Of a DNA stretch of 64,000 nucleotides, positions 16,358 to 33,444 are shown piece after piece. Origin of the DNA: Chitinophagaceae bacterium (lineage in GTDB: Bacteria; Bacteroidota; Bacteroidia; Chitinophagales; UBA10324); assembly GCA_947474435.1 (NCBI GenBank), contig CANJII010000004.1, positions 62,001 to 126,000 of the forward strand. Direction: 5' to 3'. The position numbers and the translations under genes were made by a program. Below the pieces are notes generated by a model. The model made no database searches. It saw nothing but the letters and a program-made list of their open reading frames with translations, and was not told the origin of the DNA. The stretch's first letter is position 1, and each line of letters starts with the position of its first letter.

Positions 16358-16467
16358 CAAACATTCAATTAAAAATTCTTTTCATTTTTTAATTTCAGTT
16401 TATGCTTTGATAGTTGATTTTTGCACTTGATTTTAAAAAATAATGATTGTTGAAAAAAAAATCTAAA

Positions 16468-18867
16468 ATGAAATTGAAGAATAACATCAAATCTTATTTG
16501 ATAATAACATTAATGATTGCGAACTGTTTTAAATCAACAGCTCAGATAAATACAAATACAAGTGTAACAGCCCTGCAATTAGCTCAGGCTCTGGTTGGTC
16601 CAGGCGCTACCGTTTTAAATCCGGTAATTACAGGTGCATTTGGTTCTTATGGAACTTTTGCAAACGGGAGTTCTACTAATATTGGAATTGATCATGGAAT
16701 AATTTTAACTTCCGGTACAGCTACGCTTCCAAATACTAATACTATGGCAAGTTTTGGGGCAAGCAACGGAGCTCCTGGTGACCCTCTTCTTGCTTTTGCC
16801 GGAACCACTAATGATGCATGTCGTTTTGAATTTGATGTTGTTGCTTATGATTCAATTTTAACTTTCAATTATGTTTTTGCCTCGGATGAATACAATGATT
16901 ATGTAAATTCTATAAATGATGCATTTGGGTTTTTTATTAGTGGTCCAGGTATTGTTGGGCAACAAAATATTGCTGTTGTTCCCGGAACTTCAACTCAAAT
17001 TACTATCAATAATGTGAATTGCGGGTTAAATGGTTCGTACTATGTTTGTAATGATCCATGGGATCCATTAGGTGGTGGTTGCACAACCCAATGTCCGACT
17101 AATGCAGCTCAAACTACTGTTGAATATGACGGATTTACTACCTTGCTGACAGCACAGGCAAATGTTATGGCTTGTGATACTTATCACTTGGTTTTAGTTA
17201 TTGCCGATGTAAGTGATTTTATTTTTGATTCAGGCGTTATGATTGCGAATCTATTAGCAGGTACGGTTGTCTATCAAAATGTTAGCACACCAATTCCAAA
17301 TTACCCGACCAATTCTATTGTTGAAGGATGTACCACAGGTGAAATACAAGTAAAGAAAATATCGAATAGCGGTCCATGTGGAGTTATTGATACATCCGGC
17401 ACCTGCCAACTTGATACTGTATGCTATCATATTGTAACAAGCGGAAATGCCATAGAAGGAATTGACTATATAAGCTTACCCGATACTGTTTGTATTTCAG
17501 CATTGGATAGTGTTTTTTATCTGAACATTGTTCCAATTTCCGATGGAGTTTTTGAACCACCTTTTGACACTATTATAGTTGACTTATATCCAATTCTTGA
17601 TTCATTAGATACTGCAAACTGTTCGGGCGCTGCTTCACTTATTGCACTGCATGCCATGTTTTTATTAATGGATCCCGTTTTACAAGCATCACCAGATGAC
17701 ACAATATGTGAAACCCAGTCAACTACTTTAAGTGCGGTTACAAATCTTCCGAATATGATTTGGACACCTGCTGGTTCTTTATCCTGTTCGAATTGTTCAT
17801 CACCCGTTGCTTCTCCACCTAATACCATGCAATATACAGTTCAGGCAAGTTTAGGCTCCTGTACTTTATCTGACAATGTATTAATAACTGTTTCAACCGT
17901 TCCAATAGTTAATGCAGGAGCTGATGTGTCTATTTGTCCAGGTAAATCAATTGGACTTAATGCTACAAACGCAACTACTTTTATTTGGCTTAATCCGGGT
18001 GCTTCTTCGTTAAGCGATCCGAATATTCCCAATCCAATTGCTACTCCAACTGTTCAAACAACTTATATTGTTCAAGGCAGCGATAATTTATGTGGTACAA
18101 CAACTGATACTGTTGTTGTTTCAATTTATCCTGAACCAACCATTATAGCCGGTCCTGATACTTCAATTTGCCCAAATAATTTTGTTCAGCTTTTTGTTTA
18201 CGGAGGTGTAAGTTATAATTGGTCAGGAACCGGATTAAATAATAACGACATACAATTTCCTCTTGCCTTACCTGTATCGTCAACAGAAATTTATGTTGTT
18301 ACTGCAACTGATATAAATGGATGTATTGATACTGCGCAGGTTACTGTTCATGTTTATGATGAGCCAATGGCCAATGCCGGTATTGATGTTGAAATATTTT
18401 TATTCGACAGTACTCAGTTAAATGCAAGTGGTGGTGGGTTTTATTCCTGGTCTCCAACAACCGGATTAAACAATCCCAATGTTTCCAATCCGGTTGCCAA
18501 TCCAACTGTAACAACCATGTATATTTTGACTATGACAACAGCAGATGGATGTGTGGATATGGACACAGTTTTTGTTTTGGTAAATGATGAACCTATTGTT
18601 AAAGTGCCCAATGCTTTCTCTCCAAATGGTGATGGGCATAATGATTATTTAAGAATAATTCGGTTGGGTGTTTTCGATTTAACTTATTTGAAAATATTTA
18701 ATCGCTGGGGTGAAATTGTTTTTGAAACACGAACACTTTCAGGTTGGTGGGATGGAAATTATAAAGGGCAGCCTTGCGAAGTAGGTGTTTATTCATTTAT
18801 TTTAGTTGGAGAAGGCTATGGCAACAACCATATTGAAAGAAAAGGAAATATTACTTTGGTGAGATAA
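16468..18867 (+). CDS. T9SS-exported choice-of-anchor L protein, tandem paralogue
   Basis: A 799-residue paralogue of the preceding protein with the same domain order: signal peptide, choice-of-anchor L domain (SVTALQLAQALVGPGATVL, NDAFGFFISGPG), PKD/Ig-like modules, and the type B sorting domain (PNAFSPNGDGHNDYLRII, FNRWGEIVFET). The ATG at 16468 starts a proper signal peptide; the track's TTG at 16447 adds seven lysine-rich residues and is less likely. The gap between the two paralogues is 110 bases without a terminator, so they may be co-transcribed. A terminator follows. A tandem duplication with divergence in the middle modules is the simplest origin. Confidence 0.88.
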   Translation: MKLKNNIKSYLIITLMIANCFKSTAQINTNTSVTALQLAQALVGPGATVLNPVITGAFGSYGTFANGSSTNIGIDHGIILTSGTATLPNTNTMASFGASNGAPGDPLLAFAGTTNDACRFEFDVVAYDSILTFNYVFASDEYNDYVNSINDAFGFFISGPGIVGQQNIAVVPGTSTQITINNVNCGLNGSYYVCNDPWDPLGGGCTTQCPTNAAQTTVEYDGFTTLLTAQANVMACDTYHLVLVIADVSDFIFDSGVMIANLLAGTVVYQNVSTPIPNYPTNSIVEGCTTGEIQVKKISNSGPCGVIDTSGTCQLDTVCYHIVTSGNAIEGIDYISLPDTVCISALDSVFYLNIVPISDGVFEPPFDTIIVDLYPILDSLDTANCSGAASLIALHAMFLLMDPVLQASPDDTICETQSTTLSAVTNLPNMIWTPAGSLSCSNCSSPVASPPNTMQYTVQASLGSCTLSDNVLITVSTVPIVNAGADVSICPGKSIGLNATNATTFIWLNPGASSLSDPNIPNPIATPTVQTTYIVQGSDNLCGTTTDTVVVSIYPEPTIIAGPDTSICPNNFVQLFVYGGVSYNWSGTGLNNNDIQFPLALPVSSTEIYVVTATDINGCIDTAQVTVHVYDEPMANAGIDVEIFLFDSTQLNASGGGFYSWSPTTGLNNPNVSNPVANPTVTTMYILTMTTADGCVDMDTVFVLVNDEPIVKVPNAFSPNGDGHNDYLRIIRLGVFDLTYLKIFNRWGEIVFETRTLSGWWDGNYKGQPCEVGVYSFILVGEGYGNNHIERKGNITLVR

Positions 18868-18887: not shown

Positions 18888-18929
18888 TAAAAAAGGCGTT
18901 AGAAAATTTCTAACGCCTTTTTTTTATCT
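18888..18929. terminator. Bidirectional terminator between convergent genes
   Basis: AAAAAGGCGTTAGAAA / TTTCTAACGCCTTTTT forms a long stem, A-rich on the left and T-rich on the right. It serves the choice-of-anchor L gene and the polysaccharide operon, whose last codons overlap the T run. Confidence 0.85.
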
Positions 18930-19895
18930 CCTTTGATTTAAATATTTAAACATATCAATAACAGTTTCTTGCAAAGAATATTTTTGTATCCATCTTGTTT
19001 CGGTTTTCAGTTTTGTTGAGTCGCCATAAATTATTGGCTCATCGGTAGGTCGAAAAAGAGTTGAATCCGAATCGAGAATAAATTTTCTATCGCATACTTG
19101 TTCAATTATTTCTATTACCAATTGCATGGAGTAAACTTTTTCGCCGCTTATGTTATATGCTTCGCCTGCAATTCCCTTTTCAGATAATAAAACCAATGCC
19201 GAAACCAAATCGCGCACATCGGTAATGGCACGAAGCGAAGAAAGATTTCCTACTCTGAGTTTTTCTGTTTTGCCATGAATGATGTCAAATGCGCGTTGTA
19301 CAAAATCGCTTACTGCATCATTGGTTTTTCGCGCACCAGTTGTGTTAAATATGCGGGCGCGAATGCCTGAAATTCCATGCCCCTTATAGTATTGATAAGT
19401 AAGTAAGTCTTGTGCAACCTTGCTTACACCATACGGATGCAATGGCAGAAGTTCAGCATTTTCTTTTATCGGAACATTTTCAGGAGTAAGTGAAGCACCA
19501 TACTCAGCACTGCTGCATGCAACTACTACTGTTGGATTGTATGCAGCATCAAGTTTTCGGGCCGAGATAATTGCTTCAAATAAGTTAATGGTTCCATTGG
19601 CATTTATATCCATGGTTTCAACAGGGCGAAGCCAACTGACCGTTGGAAAACTTTGTGCCGCAAGGTGAAATACTTTTGTTGGTTTGAATTCATGAATTAT
19701 TTTTTCAACCGCTTCGGCATGCCGAACATCAAGTTCAATTGGAAGACACAAATCAACTATGTCGTTCAAATTTATTGTTGGATTAAAATAGGTGCCAATC
19801 AAAAATTCTTTTTTCACTTTGCCTGAATAATATTCGAGCAAATGCGATCCAACCATGCCGGCAGTACCGGTAATTAAAATGTGTTCGTTACTCAT
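18924..19895 (-). CDS. SDR nucleotide-sugar epimerase/dehydratase (GDP-mannose 4,6-dehydratase / RMD-like)
   Basis: A 323-residue extended short-chain dehydrogenase: NAD(P)-binding GTAGMVGSHL at the start, FHLAAQSFPTVSWLRPVETM, an active-site Ser block VACSSAEYG, the catalytic YGVSK, and a C-terminal substrate domain with RAITDVRDLVSAL. The wording is closest to GDP-mannose 4,6-dehydratase and GDP-4-keto-6-deoxymannose reductase, which give GDP-deoxyhexoses such as rhamnose. The exact product cannot be decided by reading. It is the last gene of the polysaccharide operon and overlaps the previous gene by 8 bases. Confidence 0.82.
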   Translation of the reverse strand: MSNEHILITGTAGMVGSHLLEYYSGKVKKEFLIGTYFNPTINLNDIVDLCLPIELDVRHAEAVEKIIHEFKPTKVFHLAAQSFPTVSWLRPVETMDINANGTINLFEAIISARKLDAAYNPTVVVACSSAEYGASLTPENVPIKENAELLPLHPYGVSKVAQDLLTYQYYKGHGISGIRARIFNTTGARKTNDAVSDFVQRAFDIIHGKTEKLRVGNLSSLRAITDVRDLVSALVLLSEKGIAGEAYNISGEKVYSMQLVIEIIEQVCDRKFILDSDSTLFRPTDEPIIYGDSTKLKTETRWIQKYSLQETVIDMFKYLNQRR

Positions 19896-21063
19896 TCAAT
19901 GATAATGTATATACCTCTTTAATTTTTTCACCGATCAGTTTCCAGGAAAATTGTTCGTCGGCCGTTTTTTTTGCAGCGAGTCTTAATTTTTCTGCTCCTA
20001 AATTGTCTGATAATAATGTTAACATTTTACTGCAAAGGTCTTCATGATTTTCTGTTTGAAACAATATTCCATTTTCGCTATCAATAATAATGTCTTTAAA
20101 AACAGCTAAGTCACTGGCAATAATTGCGGCGCCATAATCCAGAGAACGAATTAAAACTCCACTCGAATATATTTTTCGATAAGGAAGCACCACCACATCG
20201 GTGGCTTTAAAATAATAGGGTATGCTATCATTAGGAATGTATTCTAACCTTAAAATACAATCGTCTTCCATTTTATTTTCTTTGATAATGGCAAGAAATT
20301 CCTCTTCTTCCATCTTCCAGGTTTGTCCGGCTATCAACAATTGAACATTTGCATTTTTTTTTCGAAGTAATGCAAATGCTTTTAACAACACATCCAATCC
20401 CTTCACCTTTTTAATTTGACCAAAAAAAAGAATCAATTGCTTCTCTGCCGGAAGGTTTAGTTTTTTCCGTGCCTCTGAAACCGAACATTTGGCTGAATAT
20501 AAAAAATCAGAATCGCCATGGGGTACTTTATGAATATGATCCGGCGGAAAATGTTTAAAATATTTTTCGAGTGATTTTTTTGCAAAATCAGAGTGCACAA
20601 TAATGCGGTCAATGAGTTTCTCAAATTTTAAATACTTAGTTGAATTGATAGTTGCCCCGTATTTCTGAAAATCTTCGACATCGTGTATAGTGGTAATAAT
20701 TTTAAAACCATTGCGCTTAAACAATTGAAGAATTAATAATTCAAGTCGAGAGAAGTGATAAATATTTGCGTGAAGCACATTGTACTTTTTTGCTTTTGCA
20801 TCGCGCAATGAATTAAAGATTGCTTTGACAAACCTGATTCCCCGGATGAGTTTAAAATCATTTCCATAAATCCGATGAAAGCTTTTTACTGTTGGAAATG
20901 TAAAAGGGAATTTTTCATCCATGTGTGTTTCATCGCATGTATAAAATGTTAATTCAACGCCGGCATCAGTTGCGGCTTTGCACAATCCGAAATCATAAAA
21001 TTCATTTCCACGATGACCGCCAATCGGTTCAACAAATGCAACTTTTATTTCTAAGTCATTCAT
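19888..21063 (-). CDS. Glycosyltransferase family 4
   Basis: A 391-residue GT-B enzyme. The N-terminal domain has VEPIGGHRGNEFYDFGLCKA and a TIHDVEDF acceptor-side segment. The C-terminal GT4 domain has LILFFGQIKKVKGLDVLLKAF, LLIAGQTWK, the donor-binding region DVVVLPYRKIYSSGVLIRSLDYG and ENGILF. It would add one sugar to a lipid-linked repeat unit at the cytoplasmic face. It overlaps the preceding sulfotransferase by 8 bases and the following SDR gene by 8 bases, showing translational coupling in the operon. Confidence 0.87.
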   Translation of the reverse strand: MNDLEIKVAFVEPIGGHRGNEFYDFGLCKAATDAGVELTFYTCDETHMDEKFPFTFPTVKSFHRIYGNDFKLIRGIRFVKAIFNSLRDAKAKKYNVLHANIYHFSRLELLILQLFKRNGFKIITTIHDVEDFQKYGATINSTKYLKFEKLIDRIIVHSDFAKKSLEKYFKHFPPDHIHKVPHGDSDFLYSAKCSVSEARKKLNLPAEKQLILFFGQIKKVKGLDVLLKAFALLRKKNANVQLLIAGQTWKMEEEEFLAIIKENKMEDDCILRLEYIPNDSIPYYFKATDVVVLPYRKIYSSGVLIRSLDYGAAIIASDLAVFKDIIIDSENGILFQTENHEDLCSKMLTLLSDNLGAEKLRLAAKKTADEQFSWKLIGEKIKEVYTLSLNE

Positions 21064-21949
21064 GCCATTTGCTTAAATTCCGGTTCAATAATTTTTCCAG
21101 TTTCATTATATCAGGTTTATAAAATTCATTTAAAAATTTTATTGTTTTTTCTTCAACAGGCGCTTTCTTTTTTGTTAAAATAATTTCAAGAATATACAAT
21201 TGTATTTTTTTCGGTAATAAATTTTTCATCATCAATCTGACTTTTTTAAAACGATAAATAAACCTGAACACACTGTTTCGCGGCGTGGCAAATGGGTTGT
21301 GGGTTTTATCGAGATTTAATTTTACTGTTTCATCAATTTCTAAAAACCGATAAAGCCGGTTAATTTCTTTTTCTGTAGTATTCTTAAAATCATCAAATAA
21401 AATTACCAGCACTTTTTCAGTTCCAAAAACATCCATGTATCTTTTCACCTGTTCATAATACAATCCTAATAAAATGAACTGCTGATAAAATAAATTTTCC
21501 AGAGGGGTTCTGTTTTTATTGAAAATTATTTTCTCAAAAGATGTATTTACATATCCCAGTTTACAATCCATTTGATAGTGTGAATATGCCCGCTCTACAG
21601 GATTGCGCAGCAGGATGATGATGCGTGCATCGTGAATTTTATTTTTTATTAATTGAGGAACTGCTTCGTAAAAAAGATACGAAACACTTGCTTCGCCAAC
21701 CGCTTTTTTGCCGTCGCTATTTTCAAATAATTTTTTGTAATCGTTCCAGTTGCTGATGCCCCGTTCTTTATAATACAAATCCTGTTTTACGGCTGATTCA
21801 TATGAAAAATAATTGGTTTCCTTAATAGGCGACATAAATACATCGGGGTGTGCATCCAGATAGTGATAAAGCGAGGTGGTTCCGGCCTTTGGTGCACCAA
21901 CTATAAAAAAATTCGGCAGCATTAATGGTTCCGGTTGTTCAGTTTGCAT
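21056..21949 (-). CDS. Sulfotransferase (PAPS-dependent), polysaccharide operon
   Basis: A 297-residue cytosolic sulfotransferase. The 5'-phosphosulfate loop is GAPKAGTTSLYHYLD (about residues 18-32), followed by MSPIKETNYFS. The 3'-phosphate-binding block is IILLRNPVERAYSHYQM. These are the two PAPS-binding motifs of the heparan/chondroitin-type sulfotransferase superfamily. It would sulfate a sugar hydroxyl of the growing repeat unit. It overlaps the upstream glycosidase gene by 11 bases and the downstream GT4 by 8. A second sulfotransferase in the same operon shares the motif order, which suggests two sulfation positions. Confidence 0.87.
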   Translation of the reverse strand: MQTEQPEPLMLPNFFIVGAPKAGTTSLYHYLDAHPDVFMSPIKETNYFSYESAVKQDLYYKERGISNWNDYKKLFENSDGKKAVGEASVSYLFYEAVPQLIKNKIHDARIIILLRNPVERAYSHYQMDCKLGYVNTSFEKIIFNKNRTPLENLFYQQFILLGLYYEQVKRYMDVFGTEKVLVILFDDFKNTTEKEINRLYRFLEIDETVKLNLDKTHNPFATPRNSVFRFIYRFKKVRLMMKNLLPKKIQLYILEIILTKKKAPVEEKTIKFLNEFYKPDIMKLEKLLNRNLSKWHE

Positions 21950-23543
21950 TTAGTTTTATATATCCCACACTAAAGCCGGGCAATATCAACTGCTCATTAC
22001 AGGTTTTTTCTGCCTGCCAGAAACACGACACGGCAATTTTATATTGTTTAAAGAAATTTGTTTTACCAAATCCGGCATAAGTTTTTTCACCGGATAAATA
22101 ACAAATTTTGAAGTCGGTATTTTTTATTGATTTATCATTCAGAAAAGTTTTGGAAACATTCAATTCTCTGCCTGACTTATTAATGAAATAAATAAATAAT
22201 TCGTTGCTTGCTTTTGAATAATAAGATTCAAAATGAATGTTGCGGTCTGTTTCAATCACATTATTATCCTTCACAATGATTTCAGTTTTCTGTTGGTCTA
22301 AAGAGTACATTTCTTTAATTAACAGATGAGCAAAAAAGCTTGTCCGCCTGATTAAAGTATCACTTTCAGGATCGCGGTAAGATTCACTTGGTTGATTGGT
22401 GGTTAGCAAAGCTGCAGCTAAATATCCGCCATCAAGGTTATGATATGTGGCAATATCAATCATGTTATTATGCTTATAATTCAGATCATTTAATTTCAGA
22501 TAATATTCAACAATAAACATTGCCTGAAACAAAGTGTTGCCGTAAATTCCTTTTGTTCCTCCAATAGCAATATTCCATTCGGTGATCCACATTTTGCGGT
22601 TTGAACCAAAAGTTTTTAAATAATAGTCAGCTGATTCACTCATAAATTTATCAATGTTGGAATTAAATTCATCACCGGCGCAGTTGAATATTGCATCCAG
22701 ACCTGATTGTGTATTTTGGCAAGAAAAGGGGAGGTAATAATGAACAATAATTGCATCGTACCATTTCTGGTTTTTTAATTCTTGATTCCAGTTAGAAAAA
22801 AAATTATCGAAACCGTTGCTTTCATTGTCGTCATAAATTTTTCCATACGGTGCAGCGCAGGCTCCAACAGGAATTTCAGGAAAATATTTTTTAATCGAAT
22901 CAGAATATGGAATGCATATAGAAGAATATTTTCCAACGGTAGGAAAAACAGCTCTTAGTTGTTTCAAGTATGGTTCTCCTCCTAATTCAATGCCGATAAC
23001 TTTTACTCCGTTTTTTTTAAAGAATCTAATTTGATCGAGCATTTCACGGGGCGATGCTGTTAAAATATTACCAACTAATAACACATCTGAATTTGTTCGT
23101 TTTGCAAGCTCCACTAATTGATCAATGTAGCGAACCTTTAACTGACTTTGAATTTTAAACCGTCCTTGCTTTTCGTATTTATCAGCTGCTATTTTGTTAA
23201 CAGAGGCAACTTCTGATTTTATGTATCCATAACCTTTTGCATCCCAATGGCAATAGGCCCATTCGCCTCCGCCGGGCCATCTGAGTATATTAGGGTTTAA
23301 TTGCTTTTCATATTTTATAAAGAATGGGTTTAACACATTCATTCTATCAAAAAGATTTGAAACAGCCATTCCGTACAATCGCGAAACAACGGGTGGTTTT
23401 AATTGATCTGTTTTTATTTCAAGTGAAATAAATTTTTGTTCCTTTTTTTCATGTCCGCTTTTAGTGTTTTTTCTGGGAAGAGTAAATAACCCGAGGCATA
23501 AAAAAACAAGTGAAATGAACAGTAATCTTTTAACCAAGTTCAT
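21939..23543 (-). CDS. Exported clan GH-A-like glycoside hydrolase
   Basis: A 534-residue protein with an N-terminal membrane/signal segment (residues 5-22). I do not recognise a precise family. The fold signals are those of clan GH-A: LRWPGGGEW (residues 88-96), as in arabinofuranosidase/heparanase-type enzymes; a probable acid/base Glu190 in IELGGEPYL at the end of a strand; and a probable nucleophile Glu322 in MWITEWNIAIGG. The residue before Glu190 is Gly where many GH-A enzymes have Asn. A C-terminal beta domain (about 430-534) follows. Lying between the polymerase and a sulfotransferase, with 14- and 11-base overlaps, it may trim or set the length of the polymer in the periplasm. Confidence 0.65.
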   Translation of the reverse strand: MNLVKRLLFISLVFLCLGLFTLPRKNTKSGHEKKEQKFISLEIKTDQLKPPVVSRLYGMAVSNLFDRMNVLNPFFIKYEKQLNPNILRWPGGGEWAYCHWDAKGYGYIKSEVASVNKIAADKYEKQGRFKIQSQLKVRYIDQLVELAKRTNSDVLLVGNILTASPREMLDQIRFFKKNGVKVIGIELGGEPYLKQLRAVFPTVGKYSSICIPYSDSIKKYFPEIPVGACAAPYGKIYDDNESNGFDNFFSNWNQELKNQKWYDAIIVHYYLPFSCQNTQSGLDAIFNCAGDEFNSNIDKFMSESADYYLKTFGSNRKMWITEWNIAIGGTKGIYGNTLFQAMFIVEYYLKLNDLNYKHNNMIDIATYHNLDGGYLAAALLTTNQPSESYRDPESDTLIRRTSFFAHLLIKEMYSLDQQKTEIIVKDNNVIETDRNIHFESYYSKASNELFIYFINKSGRELNVSKTFLNDKSIKNTDFKICYLSGEKTYAGFGKTNFFKQYKIAVSCFWQAEKTCNEQLILPGFSVGYIKLNAN

Positions 23544-24873
23544 AATTTTTCTCAGGTTGATTTTCGATGTAGTAGTAAAAGTAGATTAATGCAATCAATG
23601 TAAATGTTACACCCGGCCCGGGTGGAAAATAAGTACCCCCGGTAGGAATAGAACGAATCCAATAAAACAACATGTAATATTTACAGGCTTGAAAAAAAAC
23701 ATCATTTCTATTTGTTTTAATTTTTCTAATCCAGGTAATTAATTTAATGAAAACAAGCTGAATGGCGGTTACACCTATAATACCATATAAAAAAACTGAA
23801 CCAACAATACCTATATCTGATGGAAAAAACCGCCCGTAATAAGTTTGCGGGTTTCCTGCCCAGTGATTGCTCCAGTTGCCATTTCCAAAAATTATGGTTA
23901 TTGGTTTCCGAATCCAAAACAAACCTGAAATTATAATCTGCTTAATTCTGGCATCGGCCGATGATTCGCCTACTTTTTCTCCCTGAATCACCTCAAATAC
24001 ATTGGTATACATTTCATTTAACCTGAAAATAATATCGGGGCGAATTAAATAAATTAATATAAAAGCCATTGCCAAAGTGCTGGTTAATGATATGAAATAG
24101 AAAAATTGTTTTTTACTCGAAAGATTTAAAAAAAAATACAAGCCTGCTGTACCTAATAATGAAAGTGTTAATGCCCGTTTCTGAAAAATTAAAAATATAT
24201 AACTGAAAAATATTATCGAAAACAAAAGATACTTCCATGAATTTGTTTTAAAAAAAATAAATAAATAAAATAAAAATGCAAACGCTAAAAAAGCTATATC
24301 GAATGTAAAAGTACAGCCGCCCTTAGCTGTATTGCAGGTGACAAAAACAGCTTCTTTAAAATGATTGGGATTAAATAAAATATCTGCCAGTAAATATATA
24401 GTCAATTGTATCCACGCTAAGTTCAGCATCACATCCCTGATCATGTGAAGTGATATGTTTCGCGTTTTTAATTGATAGAAAATAAATATTCCTGCAATTA
24501 TAAAAAGCCATGAACGATCGGTGCCTAAACCATATAACAGTGGTTGCTTCCAAAATATGAACGAAACAATGGCAGAGTATACTGGCATTAAAAAAGCAAA
24601 CCCAAGTGAAATTCTTTCAAAGGCATTAAATTTTTTTCCGCTTGAAAGTTTATCGATAATATAAAAAATGATAAACAGCAGCAGAAAAACTAGCAATACC
24701 ATTTCATAATATACAACTGTAAACATTAATGGTGAACGACCTAATGATTGAAATATCGCAAGTAAAAAAAATCCCAGCCACCATTGTTTTAATGCAACAT
24801 TTACTTTGAATTTTGGCAATCGTAATTCAGTATAATCAGTCTGTTTTATTAAGCTGTTGTTTTCAATATTCAA
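23530..24873 (-). CDS. O-antigen polymerase/ligase-like membrane protein (Wzy-type)
   Basis: A 447-residue polytopic protein with about ten or more helices and a large extracytoplasmic loop near residues 280-350 containing GESSADARIKQIIISGLFW and FGNGNWSNHWAG, the arrangement of the Wzy/WaaL O-antigen polymerase-ligase superfamily. In a Wzx-containing operon, a Wzy polymerase is the natural reading. The start is TTG at 24873: a TAA lies in frame just upstream and no ATG is available before the first helix. It is 67 bases downstream of the GT2 gene and overlaps the glycosidase gene by 14. Confidence 0.78.
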   Translation of the reverse strand: MNIENNSLIKQTDYTELRLPKFKVNVALKQWWLGFFLLAIFQSLGRSPLMFTVVYYEMVLLVFLLLFIIFYIIDKLSSGKKFNAFERISLGFAFLMPVYSAIVSFIFWKQPLLYGLGTDRSWLFIIAGIFIFYQLKTRNISLHMIRDVMLNLAWIQLTIYLLADILFNPNHFKEAVFVTCNTAKGGCTFTFDIAFLAFAFLFYLFIFFKTNSWKYLLFSIIFFSYIFLIFQKRALTLSLLGTAGLYFFLNLSSKKQFFYFISLTSTLAMAFILIYLIRPDIIFRLNEMYTNVFEVIQGEKVGESSADARIKQIIISGLFWIRKPITIIFGNGNWSNHWAGNPQTYYGRFFPSDIGIVGSVFLYGIIGVTAIQLVFIKLITWIRKIKTNRNDVFFQACKYYMLFYWIRSIPTGGTYFPPGPGVTFTLIALIYFYYYIENQPEKNYELG

Positions 24874-24940
24874 TTCCTGATTTTTTTAAAAAATTATTGA
24901 TGGGCAAAAATCTATTTTCTTTCCTGAAGTTTTTTATGAA

Positions 24941-25987
24941 TTAAGTTTTTTGCTGTACCAAAAAACAATTTTTAAATCCGAATAAAACCTTCATTATAAT
25001 TTTTGCTTCTGAAAAATCTTTTTTTGTAAAAGCTCTGAATGCATTCAGGAGCAAACGAAACCATGCAATCGGCAGCAACGCAAAATAATGTTGCCTGTAA
25101 AACAAAAGAAGGTTTCTGCTTTTCAAACAGGCATTAAATGGGCTTCTTGCTTTGTTCATTTTTTTTCCGGTTGAATTTCCTTGCTTATGAAATACTTTGC
25201 TTTCAAAGCAAAATTTAGTTTCAAACCCTTTTCGTTTTGCTCTTATGGCCCAATCGAGTTCTTCGAAATAGAGAAAATACTTTTCATTCATCAGCCCGAC
25301 TTCATTTAAAAAATTAGCAGTAAAGAAAATGGAGGCTCCATATGGATAATCAATTTTAACATCTGGGTAATCGTATTGACCTTTATCATTTTCATTCAAT
25401 CCTTTATGATATTGCCGAGATGTAAATGGATTAAAAATCCCCCCAATTGTTTGAATACGGTTATCGCTGTTATAATAAAGTATTTTGCTTCCGATTAATC
25501 CCGGTTTTTGTTTTTTTTCTTTGAGTTTATTCGAAAAATGAATTAATGAATTTAATGATTGTTTTTCGATAACCGTATCATTATTCAGTAACCAATAATA
25601 TTCAGATTTTAATTTTTGTGCCAATTGAATGCATGCATTATTTGCGGCTGCAAAACCGGTATTATTTTCATTAAATAACAAAATCAAATTCTGAGAATCA
25701 TTTGATATATCATGAAATTCGTTCAAATTATAAACAGGATCGAAATGTTTTTTTATTAATAAAGTTCTTGCAGAATCCGCTTGATTGGAAATTGCATAAA
25801 TCCTGTTGAAGTTTTTTCCAGTGGTTTTTATTTTAAGTAAATACTCTTCAAAATTCTCGAGAGCCGAACCATTATCTATCAGGAATACATTATACTGCTT
25901 ATATGTTGATGAATTCAAGCTAAGCAGGCACTCAACGGTATCATTTGTACCGTTATAATTTACCAGAATTATACTTGTTGTATTCAT
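24941..25987 (-). CDS. Glycosyltransferase family 2
   Basis: A 348-residue GT-A enzyme resembling rhamnosyltransferases. It begins SIILVNYNGTNDTVECLLSL (nucleotide-binding loop), has ENNTGFAAANNACIQ, then WLLNNDTVIEK (the DxD-type position), PYGASIFFTANFLNEVG and YFLYFEELDWAIRAKRKG with the catalytic base region ED. A hydrophobic stretch near the C-terminus may attach it to the membrane. It would add a sugar to the lipid-linked repeat unit. It follows a sulfotransferase gene after 86 bases. Confidence 0.87.
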   Translation of the reverse strand: MNTTSIILVNYNGTNDTVECLLSLNSSTYKQYNVFLIDNGSALENFEEYLLKIKTTGKNFNRIYAISNQADSARTLLIKKHFDPVYNLNEFHDISNDSQNLILLFNENNTGFAAANNACIQLAQKLKSEYYWLLNNDTVIEKQSLNSLIHFSNKLKEKKQKPGLIGSKILYYNSDNRIQTIGGIFNPFTSRQYHKGLNENDKGQYDYPDVKIDYPYGASIFFTANFLNEVGLMNEKYFLYFEELDWAIRAKRKGFETKFCFESKVFHKQGNSTGKKMNKARSPFNACLKSRNLLLFYRQHYFALLPIAWFRLLLNAFRAFTKKDFSEAKIIMKVLFGFKNCFLVQQKT

Positions 25988-26073
25988 TATTAAAGGCTAA
26001 AAATGCAACGATAAATATTAACAAAGCCGTAACAATTTTAAGTTTCTAAAAAATTTGAAACTTCCTGCTTTAG

Positions 26074-26994
26074 TTACAGTTTGCTTTCTTTTTTTATTCC
26101 TTCTTTCCATACTCCTAAATCAATATCAATTAATTTTTCAAGATGAATAATACTATCGTGAAAATATTTATTGTATAAAGAAACTCTTAATTCAGCGGCA
26201 ATCGGAATATTTTCAGCTTGTTGTTGATTCCATTTCAAAATGGCTCGTTTTATTTTTTTACGCCATTCTTTATTCGGCAATATGTACGAAAGCACTCCGC
26301 TAACCGAGTTGTTTTTAATGAATTTTGTTAAGTTTTCGTATTTCACTTTTGTGGCACTGTTGAGTTTTAAATCTGTTTTTAAATCAACTTTATCTATGCC
26401 TAAAAACACACAAATTCTTTTTATTGCTTCCGATAAATTTTCTTTAAATTCATTTTCATAATTGATAAAAAGAAAATTCTCTTTTGGAAAGTACTTAAAG
26501 TATCTTTCTATTTGTTCATCATAATTCCCCCGGCTGATATAACTGAAATTATTTATTTCTTCTCTTGTTCCTGATTTTAATCGGGCATTTTCTTGTTGAA
26601 TGGCTTCTTCAAAACTTAATTTTTCAAATCCTTTTTTTACACTCATCAGATATTGTGAATATGCGCGGTCAATTGGATTGCGAAGTAGTACGATGAATTT
26701 TATGTTTTTACCCAAATCTTTAACTATTCTGGAAGGTATATAATCAAAAAATAAATAGTCCGGATCAAATTCGCCAATAGCTTTTTTGGGAGGGGCATAA
26801 GAAAAAAATTTTGAATAATAATCGAGTCCGAGCCCGTATTCTTCATCACGATAAAAATATTTAGTTTCTTTTCTTGGATGGCTGACTGTAATTTCAGGAT
26901 GATCTTTAAGAATGTGATAAAGTGTTGTCGTACCTGTTTTTTGTGCGCCAATACATATAAAATTCGGAAGTATTAATGGTTTTTTGGGGCTCAT
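26074..26994 (-). CDS. Sulfotransferase (PAPS-dependent), second copy in operon
   Basis: A 306-residue sulfotransferase with PAPS motifs GAQKTGTTTLYHILK (about residues 16-30), RKETKYF, and FIVLLRNPIDRAYSQYLMS. It shares overall layout with the enzyme at 21056-21949 but differs in much of the sequence, as in two enzymes for different positions. Its ATG overlaps the flippase stop (TGATG). PAPS must come from genes outside this window. Confidence 0.87.
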   Translation of the reverse strand: MSPKKPLILPNFICIGAQKTGTTTLYHILKDHPEITVSHPRKETKYFYRDEEYGLGLDYYSKFFSYAPPKKAIGEFDPDYLFFDYIPSRIVKDLGKNIKFIVLLRNPIDRAYSQYLMSVKKGFEKLSFEEAIQQENARLKSGTREEINNFSYISRGNYDEQIERYFKYFPKENFLFINYENEFKENLSEAIKRICVFLGIDKVDLKTDLKLNSATKVKYENLTKFIKNNSVSGVLSYILPNKEWRKKIKRAILKWNQQQAENIPIAAELRVSLYNKYFHDSIIHLEKLIDIDLGVWKEGIKKESKL

Positions 26995-28361
26995 CAGGTT
27001 TGCTTTAGAAATCCTTTTCTGCGAAATGAAAAAATGTGTTTTATATCAAAAGTATAAAAGCCAAAATAACGCTTCACCAGTATATAAGGAATGACATTGT
27101 ACAATACGATTCCAATAACATTGACAACGGCAGCCCCGGTTATACCGTAAATTGGAATAACAAACGCATTAAGCATTACAGTGAAAATGGTTGTAAAGAT
27201 GACAATGTTGCGGTTTACATCTTGCCTGCCGGTCATCATTAATAAATTTCCAACCGGCCCTGTTGCTGCATTAATAAATTGACCGATAGATAATATCATT
27301 AATACAGTTGCTCCGGTTAAAAAATCACCACCAAAAATTCCCATGAAAAATTTTGGAAATAAAATGAAGAAAATCAATATCGGAGCTGAGGTCCAGAAAA
27401 TTAATTTAGTGGTATTTTGAACTACTGCTGCCAATCTTTTCATTTCGCCTTTTGCATTTAACTCTGCAATTTTTGGTGCTACAGTTAGTAGAAATGCGGT
27501 GAGTGTTAGCGAAGTGATGGTTGCAATTCGAAAGGCAACTTTATAAACGCCAACATCTGCTTCAGTATAATATCTTCCTAAAAATATGGTATCGGTCCAC
27601 CCGCGAACAACCTGCAGCAATGCGGTTAAAAATAAACTGAAGGCAACTTTGGTTTTTTCACTCAAAATAATTTTTTCTCCTTCGCCGCCTCCAAGTATGG
27701 GCGATTTTTTTAGCCAGTACCAGCCAGAAATTATGGAGGAAATTGTTATGGAAATTACGAAAACAGCAACAGGAACCCTTCGGTCATTTATAATAAAATA
27801 AGACACACATAAAAGAATTCCGGTAATTGCGATTGTGCTCACATTCTGAAAAAAAGAATAGATCAATATTTTTTTCATCCCCCTGAAACAATCAGCGTGC
27901 ATGGCATGCAAAACCACCGGCAGAATACCAAGCGCGCCTAACTGAAAATATTTACTCAATGTGGGTTTTAGAAAAACGGTTGTGGCAATCCAATCGGCAC
28001 TGAAATATAAAACCAGTGAACAAATAATTGAGGCAATAATATTTACCCTGATTACTTTGAAATATAATTCTTTTATGGAGCCCCACTGATTTTTTGCATT
28101 GTATTGCGCTATTTCACGCACCATTAAAATATCATATCCCAGCTTACCGAAATTGGCAAAAAACTGAAACACGGTTTGAAAAATGGAGTAAATTCCGCTG
28201 CCGGTTGCACCATACATTCTTGCTAATACAAAAACAAAAACATAGTTGAACCCCATACCGGTTATCTTCATCATAAAGGCAAAAGCTCCGCCTTTAACAA
28301 GCTCTTTGTTATCCTTTCCTTTTACTTTTCCTGATAATAGTCTGCGTAGTTTTTTTATCAA
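26994..28361 (-). CDS. Polysaccharide flippase (Wzx-type, MOP superfamily)
   Basis: A 455-residue protein with about 12-14 membrane helices. The N-terminal segment ELVKGGAFAFMMKITGMGFNYVFVFVLARMYGATGSGIYS is the usual opening of Wzx-type lipid-linked oligosaccharide flippases. It would move the undecaprenyl-linked repeat unit across the inner membrane. The start is TTG at 28361, 15 bases after the upstream stop; no ATG occurs before the conserved region. The short gap before it reads CGCTATCGCTACGC, a small repeat. Confidence 0.88.
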   Translation of the reverse strand: MIKKLRRLLSGKVKGKDNKELVKGGAFAFMMKITGMGFNYVFVFVLARMYGATGSGIYSIFQTVFQFFANFGKLGYDILMVREIAQYNAKNQWGSIKELYFKVIRVNIIASIICSLVLYFSADWIATTVFLKPTLSKYFQLGALGILPVVLHAMHADCFRGMKKILIYSFFQNVSTIAITGILLCVSYFIINDRRVPVAVFVISITISSIISGWYWLKKSPILGGGEGEKIILSEKTKVAFSLFLTALLQVVRGWTDTIFLGRYYTEADVGVYKVAFRIATITSLTLTAFLLTVAPKIAELNAKGEMKRLAAVVQNTTKLIFWTSAPILIFFILFPKFFMGIFGGDFLTGATVLMILSIGQFINAATGPVGNLLMMTGRQDVNRNIVIFTTIFTVMLNAFVIPIYGITGAAVVNVIGIVLYNVIPYILVKRYFGFYTFDIKHIFSFRRKGFLKQT

Positions 28362-28376
28362 GGCGTAGCGATAGCG

Positions 28377-29384
28377 TTAGGGTTTTTGGGCAATAACAAT
28401 TTTTAATTTTTGTGCAAGTATGGAAGAAAAATAGGTTGAACCTGTTTTGTTCATATGGTTGTCGGCAAAGTATTTAAAGGATTTGAATCGGTCATCACCC
28501 GTAAAGTCGAATAAGGATATATGATGGCTGAGCGCGATAGAATCAACCAACTGATAAACCTTATCATCGCTATATCTTTTTAAAACCGGCGACATAACCA
28601 AAACCACTTTTACATTTTTTTGTTTACACAGGGTAATAATTCCAACAAGTGATTTCACTTTATTAGCATCAATGTGCCGGTTGCGTTCGCGTGATTTTGT
28701 TAATTCAAATTCATCTATGTACTGCTGCTTTTCCTTTTCAGTTATTGTTTTGTTTAATGGAAGGTAACCACTTTCAGTTTTTTGTTTTTTAAAAATTCCT
28801 TTCAACAAATCCAGCCACATTGAATTGTATCGATACGATTGCGACAGTAATTTTACTTTTTCAATATTGAATGGATACAGTTTATAAAAAACAGAAGAAG
28901 TATCAACATCTCTTGTTCCGCGCCAATCAGCCACTTCGCGAATTTCGTTATAATCAGCATAGTATGGCAGTAACACATTCAACCGATCATAATGCACCTC
29001 TTTGTAATACAATTCTTCCGGGAACATTTCAACCACAATCATTTTCGGCGTGTGATGAGATAATAACATCTTAGTCATTGCATAACTGAACAACAAAGAC
29101 TGTCCATCGTGCCCAGCATTGTAACAAGAAAGTTGAAGTGAATCAGCAATTAAAGGGGTGTTATAATTTCGCCTTGCTTTTGACGAACCTGTAAATATTA
29201 CATCAGCATCAGCTTTAGTAAATGCAAAAGTAGTTTCAAACTCAACACCCGAAGTTGCACCGAAATATAATTTGTGCATGACTAATCCAATCGACTGATC
29301 AAGCACTATTAAAAGCACGAGCAGCAGCAAACTCCTTTTCAGGAATTTCGTTTTAGAATTGGAAATAAATGAATTGGCTGGCAT
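28377..29384 (-). CDS. SGNH-like membrane-anchored partner of the MBOAT acyltransferase
   Basis: A 335-residue protein with one N-terminal helix (about residues 16-36) and a periplasmic SGNH-hydrolase-like domain. Block I reads VIFTGSSKARRNYNTPL, where GSS replaces GDS. Then come CYNAGHDGQSLLFSYAM and the C-terminal block DNHMNKTGSTYFS with the Asp/His pair. Proteins of this kind (AlgJ/AlgX, DltD, PatB types) work with MBOAT proteins to place O-acetyl groups on exported polysaccharides. It overlaps the MBOAT gene by 32 bases, strong evidence for a functional pair. Confidence 0.78.
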   Translation of the reverse strand: MPANSFISNSKTKFLKRSLLLLVLLIVLDQSIGLVMHKLYFGATSGVEFETTFAFTKADADVIFTGSSKARRNYNTPLIADSLQLSCYNAGHDGQSLLFSYAMTKMLLSHHTPKMIVVEMFPEELYYKEVHYDRLNVLLPYYADYNEIREVADWRGTRDVDTSSVFYKLYPFNIEKVKLLSQSYRYNSMWLDLLKGIFKKQKTESGYLPLNKTITEKEKQQYIDEFELTKSRERNRHIDANKVKSLVGIITLCKQKNVKVVLVMSPVLKRYSDDKVYQLVDSIALSHHISLFDFTGDDRFKSFKYFADNHMNKTGSTYFSSILAQKLKIVIAQKP

Positions 29385-30792
29385 CGAAAACTCCGGTTAG
29401 TAAAATGTAAATGATAACTGAACTGTAAAAAACAAATTTCAATCCCGTTGATTTTGGTTCGGGCAATGCATCGCTCTTGCTGTAATACTCCTGATAAATT
29501 TCAACTGTGTAAAGAATCAAAACACCAATCACTGCATAAATAAAGGTGCTCGAATTTCCAATGTTCAAAGCTCCTGTTCCGAAATTGAACAACGATTTCA
29601 ATATAAATAATGCATCGGGCAAATTATTCGCTCTGAAAAATGCAAACGGAATACAAATCATAATGAACGCAACCGCTGTATGTAAAATATTATTCCATCG
29701 CTTGTTGCGCTTTGAACCCAAATGGTCGAACAGCCAACCAATTTGTTTTTTAAAATACAACCTGAAAACCAACTGTGCTCCGAAAATAAAAAAGCAAATA
29801 ACAAAAGTCCATGCAGCGCCATGCCACAAGCCAGATAGAAAATAAACTATTAATAAATTAACCGCACCTCTGTCTCTTCCTTTTCGATATCCACCAAGCG
29901 GACGAAACACATAATCCATAAACCATGATGTGAGCGAAATATGCCATCGCTGCCATATTTCTCCAATAGATTTTGACAAATAAGGGCGTTTAAAATTGGT
30001 CATTAATTTTATTCCCATCACTTGAGCCGCACCAATGGCCATATCACTGTAACCCGAAAAATCACAATACAACTGCCAGGCAAAAAAGAAAAGTCCGCAC
30101 CAGAAAGTAAGCGTTTCGCCTGTGTGCTGATAAGGGTAATCAAACACATTGCTCACATAAGCACCGCAACGGTCGGCTATCACTACTTTTTTAAACAAAC
30201 CCCACAACATCAGTTTTAATCCGCCAACAATTCTGTTGTAATCAAACAAATGTTCTTCTTTAAACTGATGCAATAAATTTTGCGGGCGCTCAATAGGGCC
30301 TGCCACCAACTGCGGATAAAACATCACATATAGCGCATACAACAAAATATTTTTCTCCGGTTTCTGATTACCACGATACACCTCAATCGTATAACTCATT
30401 GCCTGAAAAGTGTGAAAGCTCAAACCAATTGGCAATACCATATTCAGTAGCGGAATATCAGGGTGCCATCCCAAGAGACCTGCGAGGCCTTCAATGTTTC
30501 CAACAAAAAAATTATAATATTTAAAAACCGACAACACACCAATGTTGGCTATGATGCTGATAATTAAAAACAATTTCCTGTTCCTGCCTTTGGCATTTTC
30601 AATCCACAGCCCTGCGAAATAATCAATGACAACAGTGAATAATAAAATGATAATGTAGGATGGAATAAAAAACATATAAAACACGCAACTTGCTGTAAGC
30701 AGCATGGTCCATCTGAAATTTTTTGGCAACAGGAAGTATAAAAAAGTAACGACCGGAAAAAAAATAATAAAAGCGAACGAGTTAAACAGCAT
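29353..30792 (-). CDS. MBOAT family O-acyltransferase (AlgI-like)
   Basis: A 479-residue polytopic MBOAT protein. Conserved blocks: YPQLVAGPIERPQNLLHQF, LYCDFSGYSDMAIG (about 242-254), KRPYLSKSIGEIWQRWHISLT and the invariant active-site His324 in SGLWHGAAWTF. AlgI-type MBOATs carry acyl groups, usually acetyl, across the inner membrane for O-acylation of exported glycans. This is the first gene of the ten-gene minus-strand operon and overlaps its SGNH partner. ATG at 30792. Confidence 0.9.
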   Translation of the reverse strand: MLFNSFAFIIFFPVVTFLYFLLPKNFRWTMLLTASCVFYMFFIPSYIIILLFTVVIDYFAGLWIENAKGRNRKLFLIISIIANIGVLSVFKYYNFFVGNIEGLAGLLGWHPDIPLLNMVLPIGLSFHTFQAMSYTIEVYRGNQKPEKNILLYALYVMFYPQLVAGPIERPQNLLHQFKEEHLFDYNRIVGGLKLMLWGLFKKVVIADRCGAYVSNVFDYPYQHTGETLTFWCGLFFFAWQLYCDFSGYSDMAIGAAQVMGIKLMTNFKRPYLSKSIGEIWQRWHISLTSWFMDYVFRPLGGYRKGRDRGAVNLLIVYFLSGLWHGAAWTFVICFFIFGAQLVFRLYFKKQIGWLFDHLGSKRNKRWNNILHTAVAFIMICIPFAFFRANNLPDALFILKSLFNFGTGALNIGNSSTFIYAVIGVLILYTVEIYQEYYSKSDALPEPKSTGLKFVFYSSVIIYILLTGVFDASQFIYFQF

Positions 30793-30953
30793 ACCGGTAT
30801 GTTACTGACTTTGTGTTTTTGTTTTTGAGGTGGCGAAAATAGTTTTTCGTTTTTCGATATTTAGGTTTACCTGCGTGTATTTTATTTGTGGGCAATGAAT
30901 TAATTAATACACCCAATTAAGCAGGAGGGATTTATTTTTTGCTTAAATAATAG

Positions 30954-32030
30954 TTAACACTTTTCAAGAAAATTCTTAACTGCTCCTTCAAACTGATTAT
31001 CGGAATCCTTCACAGGCAATCCCGAAAAATTTTCAATTTCACTCAGTGCATTTCTTAAATTGAATGAAGATTGCGGCACAGAATAAAAAAATTTTTTAGC
31101 ATGAAAATTCTCGCCAAGGTATTCTTGTTCCGTTTGTCCGGGAGTAGGAATAAGCATCGCCTTTTTTCCGGTGGCTGCTAAATCCATAATAGTGCTGTAA
31201 CCACTGCGGCTAACAATATATTTTGACTCCATCATCGCCTTGTTCAATTCAACAGCATTCAAATGTGAAACCGAATTAATGTGATCCGGAGTTATTAATT
31301 CATTTTCATTTCCGGGTGTGCCTCTCACAATTAATATTTTCAGTTTCATCTCTCGCATTTGCTGTAACAATTTTTCTTCCAATACAGATCGCTGTGGCTC
31401 AGGACCGGAAAGGATCACGAGTAAATCATTTTTTATTTCAAATCCGTCCAGTTTTTTAAACCGCGAAAGCGGACCAATGAAAGTTGTTTGTTTCGGCAGT
31501 GAATATTTATGCGAAAGAATTCCGGACAAATTATCGTCACCGGCATAATCCGGAATCCAACAACAATCATATTTATTCATGATGCGATAATTCAACCGGT
31601 AAACTTGTTTTTCTGCCCATTTAAAAATATCCGGCATAATAATTCCGACCTGGTGAGTCATAAATACACAAGGCACATTGTAGTTAAATAATCCGAAACG
31701 ATTATCAGAAATCACTCCGTTCAGTTTTAGATCTTTCACTAATTGTTTTAGCTTTTTGTGTTCTGCAAAACCCGAATTAATCAGTTTTGGAATCTGTGGA
31801 ATTATTGCCGTGGCAAACGAACCCGATCGGCGATACTTAATATCGTATCCATCAATCACACAACTTTCCAGTTCCGGAAATTCCTGTTGTAGAATTTTTA
31901 GTGGCTTGCCATTACTGCCAATTATTACTTCGGCATTTTGTTTTTGCAATTCACGAATAACGGGAATGCACCGCGTAGCATGACCTAATCCCCAATCCAA
32001 CGGCGCAACCAATATTCGTTTTCTGCTCAT
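30954..32030 (-). CDS. Glycosyltransferase, MurG/YjiC-like GT-B fold
   Basis: A 358-residue GT-B protein starting at the ATG at 32030 (the track's TTG is one codon earlier). It begins RILVAPLDWGLGHATRCIPVI, a Bacteroidota signature for this group, and has a C-terminal GT28-like domain with YIVSRSGYSTIMDLAATGKKAMLIPTPGQTEQEYLG, the donor-sugar pocket of MurG-type enzymes. Substrate unknown. It is separated from the MBOAT gene by 161 bases, so it may be transcribed on its own. Confidence 0.75.
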   Translation of the reverse strand: MSRKRILVAPLDWGLGHATRCIPVIRELQKQNAEVIIGSNGKPLKILQQEFPELESCVIDGYDIKYRRSGSFATAIIPQIPKLINSGFAEHKKLKQLVKDLKLNGVISDNRFGLFNYNVPCVFMTHQVGIIMPDIFKWAEKQVYRLNYRIMNKYDCCWIPDYAGDDNLSGILSHKYSLPKQTTFIGPLSRFKKLDGFEIKNDLLVILSGPEPQRSVLEEKLLQQMREMKLKILIVRGTPGNENELITPDHINSVSHLNAVELNKAMMESKYIVSRSGYSTIMDLAATGKKAMLIPTPGQTEQEYLGENFHAKKFFYSVPQSSFNLRNALSEIENFSGLPVKDSDNQFEGAVKNFLEKC

Positions 32031-32142
32031 CAATTATTTATCGGAGTGCAAATAAGAAAAAACAAATTTCATCGTTTGAAAATAATTGCAGCCATTTAAC
32101 GGCGATTGCTCAAATTTACATTCACAAAAAATTCAAATCCGG

Positions 32143-32388: not shown

Positions 32389-33444
32389 TTAATAAACTTT
32401 ATATCCGGAAAGATTTGTTCCATAAGACACAATATTCTGAGTGGTTCCGGTAAATTGGTAAATTCTAAATTGCACAACATCTCCAGCATTCAATTTTATA
32501 TTGTTGGTTGAATGTGAATTGGTATACGACAGTCCACCAAGTAATCCATTTAGGCTTTCTTCATAAAATACGCCATTTAAATATAACTCAATAGTAGTCC
32601 ATCCATTAGCAGAAAAAACAAACCAATCAACATTTACATCAAAATGATACAATCCTGCGCTTGGAGCTGTAAAGTTACTGTTGGCATCAAAATTATTACC
32701 ACCATCATCATATACTTCATTGGAAAAAATTAAAGTTGTTTCAGTAGCATCAGTAACAGATAAACCATTACTTGTGGCCTTAAATCCAATTTGAGGAGCT
32801 GATGCACCAGCGGGTCCTTGTGGGCCGGTTGCACCTGTTGGTCCGGCTGGACCCTGTGGGCCTTGAGAACCGGTTGCACCTGTTGCTCCGGCAGGTCCTT
32901 GTGGACCTTGAGCTCCAGTTGTACCAGTTGGTCCGGCAGGCCCTTGTGGACCTTGAGAACCTGTTGCACCTGTTGCTCCCGTAGCACCACTTGGTCCATC
33001 TGCTCCCTGAGGACCTTGCGGGCCTTGTGGACCTTGAGGGCCAGGAGTTCCATTAACAGCATACAAAGCATAAGGAACACTTAATAATTCTGAGGTTCCC
33101 ATGGTTTGAAATCCGGCTCCAAAATTTATTTCCTGTTGTAAAAATTTATTTCCGGTTGACCAATCAATGCTATTGAAAGTTCCTGAAATAACTGTTCCTG
33201 AACCAATGTTAATGGAGAATAATCCAAATGCATTAGTAGTAACATTGTGTGATTCTGAATAAACTACGGTGCCTGAAGCAGAACCATCATGAATAGATGC
33301 ACGAACTGTTAGAGTTGCGTTTGTTAATTCAGCTCCTGCATTGTCTCTTGCAACAGCCTGGTACTTGAATAATTGCGGAGTTTGGGCAAAAGCACCGATA
33401 CCTGCAGAAATCATAATCAAAGTAATAAGTAAAATCTTTTTCAT
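32389..33444 (-). CDS. Secreted collagen-like protein with C-terminal C1q-like domain
   Basis: A 351-residue exported protein. Order: signal peptide to about residue 20; an N-terminal domain starting [18 protein letters not shown], common in Bacteroidota surface proteins; about 27 Gly-X-Y triplets (residues 132-213) rich in GPQ, GPA and GAT; and a C-terminal beta domain with [21 protein letters not shown] and [11 protein letters not shown], the pattern of C1q/TNF-like trimeric heads. Collagen stalks with C1q-like heads form trimers in animals. No T9SS sorting domain is visible, so how it leaves the cell is unclear. It lies 40 bases downstream of a T9SS protein gene, probably one operon. Confidence 0.82.
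32806..33051 (-). repeat. Collagen-like Gly-X-Y coding repeat
   Basis: About 27 consecutive Gly-X-Y triplets, with longer units such as [13 protein letters not shown] repeated. The 9-bp and larger DNA repeats make the length of this tract prone to change by slippage. Confidence 0.9.

Follow-up and report, generated by a model that had tools for sequence, protein, structure and literature searches.

A conserved ten-gene block of a Chitinophagaceae bacterium with the predicted functions for a sulfated, O-acylated Wzx/Wzy polysaccharide

Introduction

Sulfated polysaccharides are thought to be rare in bacteria, and their producers in many habitats are not known. In a 2021 study of synechan, the sulfated extracellular polysaccharide of Synechocystis sp. 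PCC 6803, such polymers were described as scarcely known in bacteria outside the cyanobacteria, and sulfotransferases as not known in other bacterial clusters for extracellular polysaccharides (PMC8205485). A survey at Shark Bay reported no sulfotransferase in its metagenome-assembled genomes (MAGs) of Bacteroidetes (PMC9723792), and in sludge granules sulfated polymers were found, with few producers identifiable by sulfotransferase homology (PMC10483923). Here we analyse a block of ten genes in a stretch of 64,000 nucleotides (the window) from a Chitinophagaceae bacterium (Bacteroidota; assembly GCA_947474435.1, contig CANJII010000004.1, positions 62,001 to 126,000 of the forward strand). A preliminary description had proposed that these genes make a Wzx/Wzy-type polysaccharide, sulfated from 3'-phosphoadenosine 5'-phosphosulfate (PAPS) and acylated by an MBOAT/SGNH pair. 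Gene families, motifs and comparison with relatives support this proposal, and very probably the block assembles a secreted or capsular heteropolysaccharide that is sulfated and O-acylated, with a hydrolase encoded beside the predicted polymerase Wzy.

Parts of this arrangement are found in described systems. The synechan (xss) cluster, like the block, specifies a sulfated Wzx/Wzy polysaccharide, contains two sulfotransferases and has its outer-membrane polysaccharide export (OPX) gene elsewhere in the genome, but it is cyanobacterial and plasmid-borne, contains eight glycosyltransferases, and the main text of the report mentions no MBOAT protein or glycosidase (PMC8205485). According to the portions of the two reports drawn on here, the clusters for sulfated capsules in Vibrio sp. 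KMM 8419 and Cobetia marina KMM 1449 resemble the block in that sulfotransferases and PAPS synthesis genes accompany the cluster, with CysQ also present in Cobetia and with O-acyl groups and rhamnose in the Vibrio polymer, and differ from it in being ABC-transporter-dependent regions of 70-80 genes in marine Gammaproteobacteria, for which those portions mention no Wzy-linked hydrolase (PMC11641403, PMC11766843). The Psl locus of Pseudomonas aeruginosa is also of Wzx/Wzy type, and includes the inner-membrane/periplasmic hydrolase PslG, which has two catalytic Glu residues and is active in synthesis (PMC6813494). DltB/DltD, AlgI/AlgX and PatA/PatB share with the block an MBOAT protein with a WHG histidine and an adjacent membrane-anchored SGNH-like protein with Ser and Asp-x-His, although no sequence match to solved members of this type could be detected for the SGNH-like protein of the block. 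PslG belongs to glycoside hydrolase family GH39, whereas the block enzyme matches GH51 and GH79, and we know of no sulfation of Psl. The GH51 alpha-L-arabinofuranosidases and GH79 beta-glucuronidases share their fold and catalytic Glu pair with the block glycosidase, which has only 11-15% identity to them, has no Pfam match, is exported and is encoded with Wzy. We found no description of the Bacteroidota block in the literature searched, from which most subscription papers were absent.

Results and Discussion

Gene content and conservation of the block

Recomputing the open reading frames and their junctions confirmed the ten genes of the block, all on the minus strand between 18924 and 30792, with the coordinates and overlaps given by the preliminary description. 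The first gene encodes the MBOAT protein and is followed by genes for the SGNH-like protein, Wzx, a sulfotransferase (ST1), a family 2 glycosyltransferase (GT2), a Wzy-like protein, a glycosidase (GH), a second sulfotransferase (ST2), a family 4 glycosyltransferase (GT4) and a short-chain dehydrogenase/reductase (SDR). Neighbouring genes overlap by 32 (SGNH/MBOAT), 1 (ST1/Wzx), 14 (GH/Wzy), 11 (ST2/GH), 8 (GT4/ST2) and 8 (SDR/GT4) bases, and are separated by 15 (Wzx/SGNH), 86 (GT2/ST1) and 67 (Wzy/GT2) bases. Pfam matches above curated cut-offs were obtained for the SDR, GT4, two Sulfotransfer_1, GT2, Polysacc_synt (Wzx) and MBOAT proteins. The glycosidase, Wzy-like and SGNH-like proteins had no match in Pfam or NCBIfam, and their identities were assigned through alignment, fold and position.

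In the pathway that we propose, GT2, GT4 and other glycosyltransferases would assemble the repeat unit on undecaprenyl phosphate. Their donors would include GDP-6-deoxyhexose and, probably, dTDP-rhamnose together with UDP-uronic acid or derived sugars. ST1 and ST2 would sulfate the unit in the cytoplasm with PAPS supplied by CysD/N/C, while CysQ would remove the by-product PAP (3'-phosphoadenosine 5'-phosphate). Wzx would flip the unit for polymerisation by Wzy, with periplasmic O-acylation by the MBOAT/SGNH pair, and a hydrolase of clan GH-A, anchored in the membrane and encoded beside Wzy, may edit the chain or limit its length before export through Wza/Wzz.

The block is well supported by comparison. 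Gene order is kept in 15 of the 16 genomes of the family, some loci being cut by contig ends, and is therefore not due to chance. These blocks carry two to six sulfotransferases each. With its order conserved in this way, the arrangement is inherited rather than a rare assembly, and the term "uncommon" used in the preliminary description is misleading for a block that is the rule in this family. The Wzy protein is likewise single-copy in 15 of 16 genomes, the exception (G009) being 72% complete. Across the genus and other genera of the family the conserved order is MBOAT-SGNH-(ST)-Wzx-ST1-(ST-ST)-GT2-Wzy-(GH or ST)-ST2-GT4-SDR, with the ST2 and GH positions swapped in two sister species (G001, G003) and the second sulfotransferase relocated beside ST1 in another (G004). 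A more diverged block (G007) retains Wzx-ST-GT2-Wzy-GH-ST-GT4, and the 32-nucleotide MBOAT/SGNH overlap recurs in four sister species (G001, G003, G004, G005). Among the named relatives, a MAG of Chitinophagaceae (JAHEZG010000051.1) is nearest, followed by two Chitinophagales MAGs. Within the genus, mean pairwise identity is high for the outer genes (MBOAT 88%, SDR 86%, GT4 and Wzx 78%) and lower in the centre (ST1 62%, ST2 57%, Wzy 54%, GH 53%, GT2 48%). A variable centre between conserved flanks is the pattern expected if the repeat unit differs between species, as in capsule loci.

Sulfotransferases and PAPS supply

Both putative sulfotransferases named in the preliminary description keep the PAPS-binding and catalytic motifs when aligned with the heparan sulfotransferases NDST and 3-OST. 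ST1 (26074-26994, minus strand; PF00685, 75.9 bits) and ST2 (21056-21949, minus strand; PF00685, 75 bits) match the putative sulfotransferase 3rnl first (E 1e-44 for ST2), and then heparan N- and 3-O-sulfotransferases, as seen with 3-OST5 (3bd9, E 3e-20) for ST1 and NDST (1nst, E 7e-11) for ST2. The K-x-G-T-T loop binding the 5'-phosphosulfate, the R..R..S site for the 3'-phosphate and the Glu of the GE...Y motif are kept in most block sulfotransferases, each alignment column being conserved in 64-73 of the 75 sequences. In ST2 these residues are K21, G23, T24 and T25, R115, R120 and S123, and E86; ST1 keeps the equivalent set, including Glu E75. In a maximum-likelihood tree, in which two sulfotransferases of this genome (own_L005, own_L006) were disregarded, ST1 and ST2 fell into separate positional orthologous clades (support 100/97 and 100/98), which suggests two fixed acceptors. 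The earlier proposal of two different sulfates fits these separate clades. The predicted PAPS-dependent enzymes would transfer sulfate to the glycan, at positions that may differ between ST1 and ST2.

Could the two sulfotransferases act instead on a lipid or small molecule, and merely be located in a glycan operon? The genome does have stand-alone Sulfotransfer_1 genes, so that not every such enzyme is linked to glycan synthesis. However, in a range of genera and families the positional orthologues of ST1 and ST2 are encoded among Wzx, Wzy and GT genes. Their best characterised structural relatives are polysaccharide sulfotransferases, and we consider this explanation very improbable.

A glycan-sulfating role requires PAPS, and a cysC-cysD-cysN string is present on another contig (C13) of this genome, which is 99.9% complete. 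CysQ was found above its equivalog cut-off (289 versus 228.8 bits). Neither a sulfite reductase (NIR_SIR) nor a separate PAPS reductase was found in this genome, CysD being the only protein with a PAPS_reduct domain; these copy numbers rest on genome searches. As this genome can make PAPS and neither reductase was found, its PAPS probably serves sulfation, which is the most economical reading. In the family, APS (adenosine 5'-phosphosulfate) kinase occurs in 15 of 16 genomes and NIR_SIR in none of the 16, compared with NIR_SIR in 72 of 183 genomes in the rest of the order sample, a contrast that is a correlation within one lineage and not an independent-contrast test; APS kinase without sulfite reductase also occurs in many members of the order outside the family. 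The prediction is that PAPS in bacteria of this family goes into sulfation instead of cysteine synthesis.

Wzx/Wzy route, exporter and sugar precursors

The Wzx flippase (26994-28361, minus strand) matched PF01943 above cut-off (76.5 bits). The Wzy-like polymerase (23530-24873, minus strand), a polytopic membrane protein for which a PDB profile search gave no useful match, has a conserved family alignment and lies at the expected position beside Wzx and GT2 in relatives. GT2 (24941-25987, minus strand; PF00535) is rhamnosyltransferase-like, with a match to TIGR01556 (E 1e-13) that is below cut-off, and GT4 (19888-21063, minus strand) matched PF00534. The SDR (18924-19895, minus strand; PF16363) resembles Rmd, a GDP-6-deoxy-4-keto-hexose reductase, its closest PDB structure being a GDP-6-deoxy-D-lyxo-4-hexulose reductase (2pk3, E 1e-44). 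As Gmd is also present above cut-off in this genome (G000:C2:31960), a GDP-6-deoxyhexose such as D-rhamnose is suggested as a precursor.

The wza/wzc and cysD/N/C genes, which the preliminary description had found absent from the window, are present elsewhere in the genome and in part adjoin the block in relatives, although here they are unlinked to it. A single string on contig C39 encodes a sugar-nucleotide SDR, a nucleotide-sugar dehydrogenase, RmlB, a TviC-like epimerase, a large Wza, a Wzz-like protein, CpsB, RmlC, RmlD and CysQ. In the sister species G001 and G003, the MBOAT gene is immediately preceded by CpsB-rmlC-rmlD-CysQ. CysQ occupies this place in G013 and G015, and Wza-Wzz does so in three genomes of family f14 (G043, G055, G067). 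Because relatives carry parts of this set beside the block, the C39 locus is probably its exporter, separated from it in this genome. A second set on C18, GT4-Wza-Wzc-WecA, is also unlinked to the block, and its WecA-like protein (PF00953) could supply the priming sugar-phosphate transferase. The choice of exporter comes from comparison, since the exporters of this genome are unlinked to the block and both the second Wza-Wzc-WecA locus and other Wzy_C proteins are present.

These loci also bear on the possibility that the product is not a free capsule or exopolysaccharide, but a sulfated glycan of the O-antigen or A-LPS (anionic lipopolysaccharide) type, attached to lipid A-core or to surface proteins of the type IX secretion system (T9SS). 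Wzx/Wzy systems make O-antigens as well, the three other Wzy_C proteins in the genome could include a WaaL ligase, and T9SS-type adhesins flank the block. O-antigens need no Wza, however, and Wza-Wzz stands directly before the block in three relatives, while CpsB-rmlCD-CysQ, corresponding to the downstream end of the Wza-Wzz locus, stands before it in two more; in addition, no ligase was recognised in the blocks. An attached glycan of this kind is therefore unlikely, and we favor a capsule or exopolysaccharide.

O-acylation of this polymer is predicted from the first two genes. The MBOAT O-acyltransferase (29353-30792, minus strand; PF03062, 96 bits) is of the DltB/AlgI type, and aligns with DltB (6bug, E 9e-23), including the catalytic WHG histidine. 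Its partner, an SGNH-like acyl-esterase/transferase (28377-29384, minus strand), has GSS (S67/S68) and DNH (D308, H310) blocks that are invariant in 10 homologues; a PDB profile search with this protein gave no useful match, and Pfam none. The pair would O-acylate the exported glycan.

The glycosidase

The gene at 21939-23543 (minus strand) encodes an exported, membrane-anchored protein that appears, from its modelled fold, to be a TIM-barrel retaining hydrolase of clan GH-A, similar to GH51 and GH79. Its PDB profile matches were GH51 arabinofuranosidases (2c7f, E 6e-12) and, weakly, GH79 beta-glucuronidases. An AlphaFold model built from a five-sequence alignment (pLDDT 72, pTM 0.76; pLDDT 34 without the alignment) retrieved GH51 and GH79 structures with Foldseek (probability 1.00, E down to 7e-17, TM 0.50-0.58). 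Membership of GH51 itself was considered and rejected, as Pfam gave no relevant domain at a useful score, GH51 included, in any of 16 members of the glycosidase family, and the match is a distant profile match to GH51 structures. All 16 homologues retain E190 and E322, which align with the acid/base and nucleophile. The Asn that precedes the acid/base Glu in this clan is Gly in the window protein and Cys in its nearest relative, which may reflect an unusual sugar at the -1 subsite. The N-termini are hydrophobic anchors, and a Cys present in some of them may be part of a lipobox.

In most loci that carry it, across several families, the glycosidase gene overlaps or abuts Wzy. PslG offers an analogy, since its hydrolytic activity and inner-membrane association are required for Psl synthesis (PMC6813494), and on that analogy we favor a role in editing the chain, a proposal that stands about as good a chance of being right as of being wrong. 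PslG was not named among the PDB profile matches of the glycosidase, and no direct alignment of the two was made. Alternatively, the enzyme could be a hydrolase that releases or remodels the finished polymer of its own cell, or could be catalytically altered, its position beside Wzy reflecting co-inheritance with a type of repeat unit. The replaced Asn and the existence of stand-alone relatives fit this alternative, as does the lack of the gene in 10 of 15 family blocks, from which it follows that the hydrolase is not required for every version of the polymer. Both catalytic Glu residues are nevertheless invariant, the association with Wzy recurs across several families, and PslG is an example of an inner-membrane hydrolase that can be required for synthesis (PMC6813494). 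We regard a releasing, remodelling or altered enzyme as a real possibility, if a somewhat doubtful one. The earlier claim of enzymatic trimming thus agrees with an exported protein that has both catalytic residues, but it remains conjectural for an enzyme absent from many family members.

Another protein of the glycosidase family, secreted and not encoded beside Wzy, occurs in this genome (contigs C81 and C67; L115:4538-5941, L116:1-722). It is apparently one gene split by contig ends, with a near-identical overlap, and its acid/base motif is ELGDE.

Several observations weigh against the proposed sulfated, O-acylated polysaccharide. In this genome the block stands apart from the genes for export and PAPS synthesis, and there are further Wzy_C proteins as well as a second Wza-Wzc-WecA locus. 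Neither the Wzy-like nor the SGNH-like protein has a family match. The patchy occurrence of the hydrolase counts in the same direction, and the sulfotransferase acceptors could be lipid or protein glycans.

Distribution outside the family

When the class was searched with the glycosidase profile, several loci from other families (L117-L120 and L122) had Wzx-ST-ST-Wzy-GH-ST-ST in the same order, or the portion of it that fits on the contig. In one distant genome (G403, locus L120), this string continues on the same strand with a WecG-type glycosyltransferase and then CysC-CysD-CysN, which ties PAPS synthesis to the gene set of the block. At another locus (L125), CysN and CysQ adjoin Wzx and sulfotransferases. 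It is conceivable, though we put it forward tentatively, that these loci represent an undescribed surface polysaccharide found throughout the Bacteroidia, with two to six sulfotransferases and a Wzy-coupled clan GH-A hydrolase as recurrent components, and with sulfate activation feeding only the polymer. Block order and position-specific sulfotransferases provide a searchable signature for producers, and the block yields sulfotransferases that are candidates for acting on polysaccharides, and a glycosidase that may define a new family.

The glycosidase-less blocks of four genera of the family (g2, g4, g7, g8; L050-L056) have instead a long-branched sulfotransferase between Wzy and ST2, and these sulfotransferases form a clade of six (support 100/100). 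An ancestral block with both the hydrolase and a divergent Wzy-adjacent sulfotransferase was considered and is unsupported, as the extra sulfotransferases beside the hydrolase elsewhere belong to a different, Sulfotransfer_3-like group. Two stand-alone sulfotransferase genes of the same genome as the window (L078:9568-10509 and L079:9865-10782) lie away from glycan genes, and the first joins, with weak support (93/80), a block sulfotransferase from other genera in this family.

Transcription signals and neighbouring genes

The ten genes are presumably co-transcribed. At the 3' end of the block lies a predicted bidirectional Rho-independent terminator (18890-18926, minus strand; fold -20.1 kcal/mol, z -7.0). 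The leader element ACTATTTT[C/T]GC (30832-30860, minus strand), located ~40-52 nucleotides before the start codon of the MBOAT gene, is invariant across five species. The -7 box of Bacteroidota promoters is TAnnTTTG, and because the element resembles it, we consider it a candidate, unproven promoter -7 region; matches to sigma-70 promoters were at chance level only. In G004, a run of ~17 C (L045 ~17600-17617) is located some 160-177 nucleotides upstream of the MBOAT start, and is possibly a phase-variation tract or an assembly artefact.

A GT28-like glycosyltransferase gene (30954-32033, minus strand) lies 161 nucleotides upstream of the block; it was rejected as a block member, as in none of the relatives does its best hit lie near the block. 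Convergent with the block are two adjacent genes (13961-18867, plus strand) for paralogous cell-surface proteins of ~800 amino acids that end in a SPNGDG-type C-terminal domain (T9SS type B-like), and at 32389-33444 (minus strand) an exported protein with a collagen-like Gly-x-y repeat is encoded.

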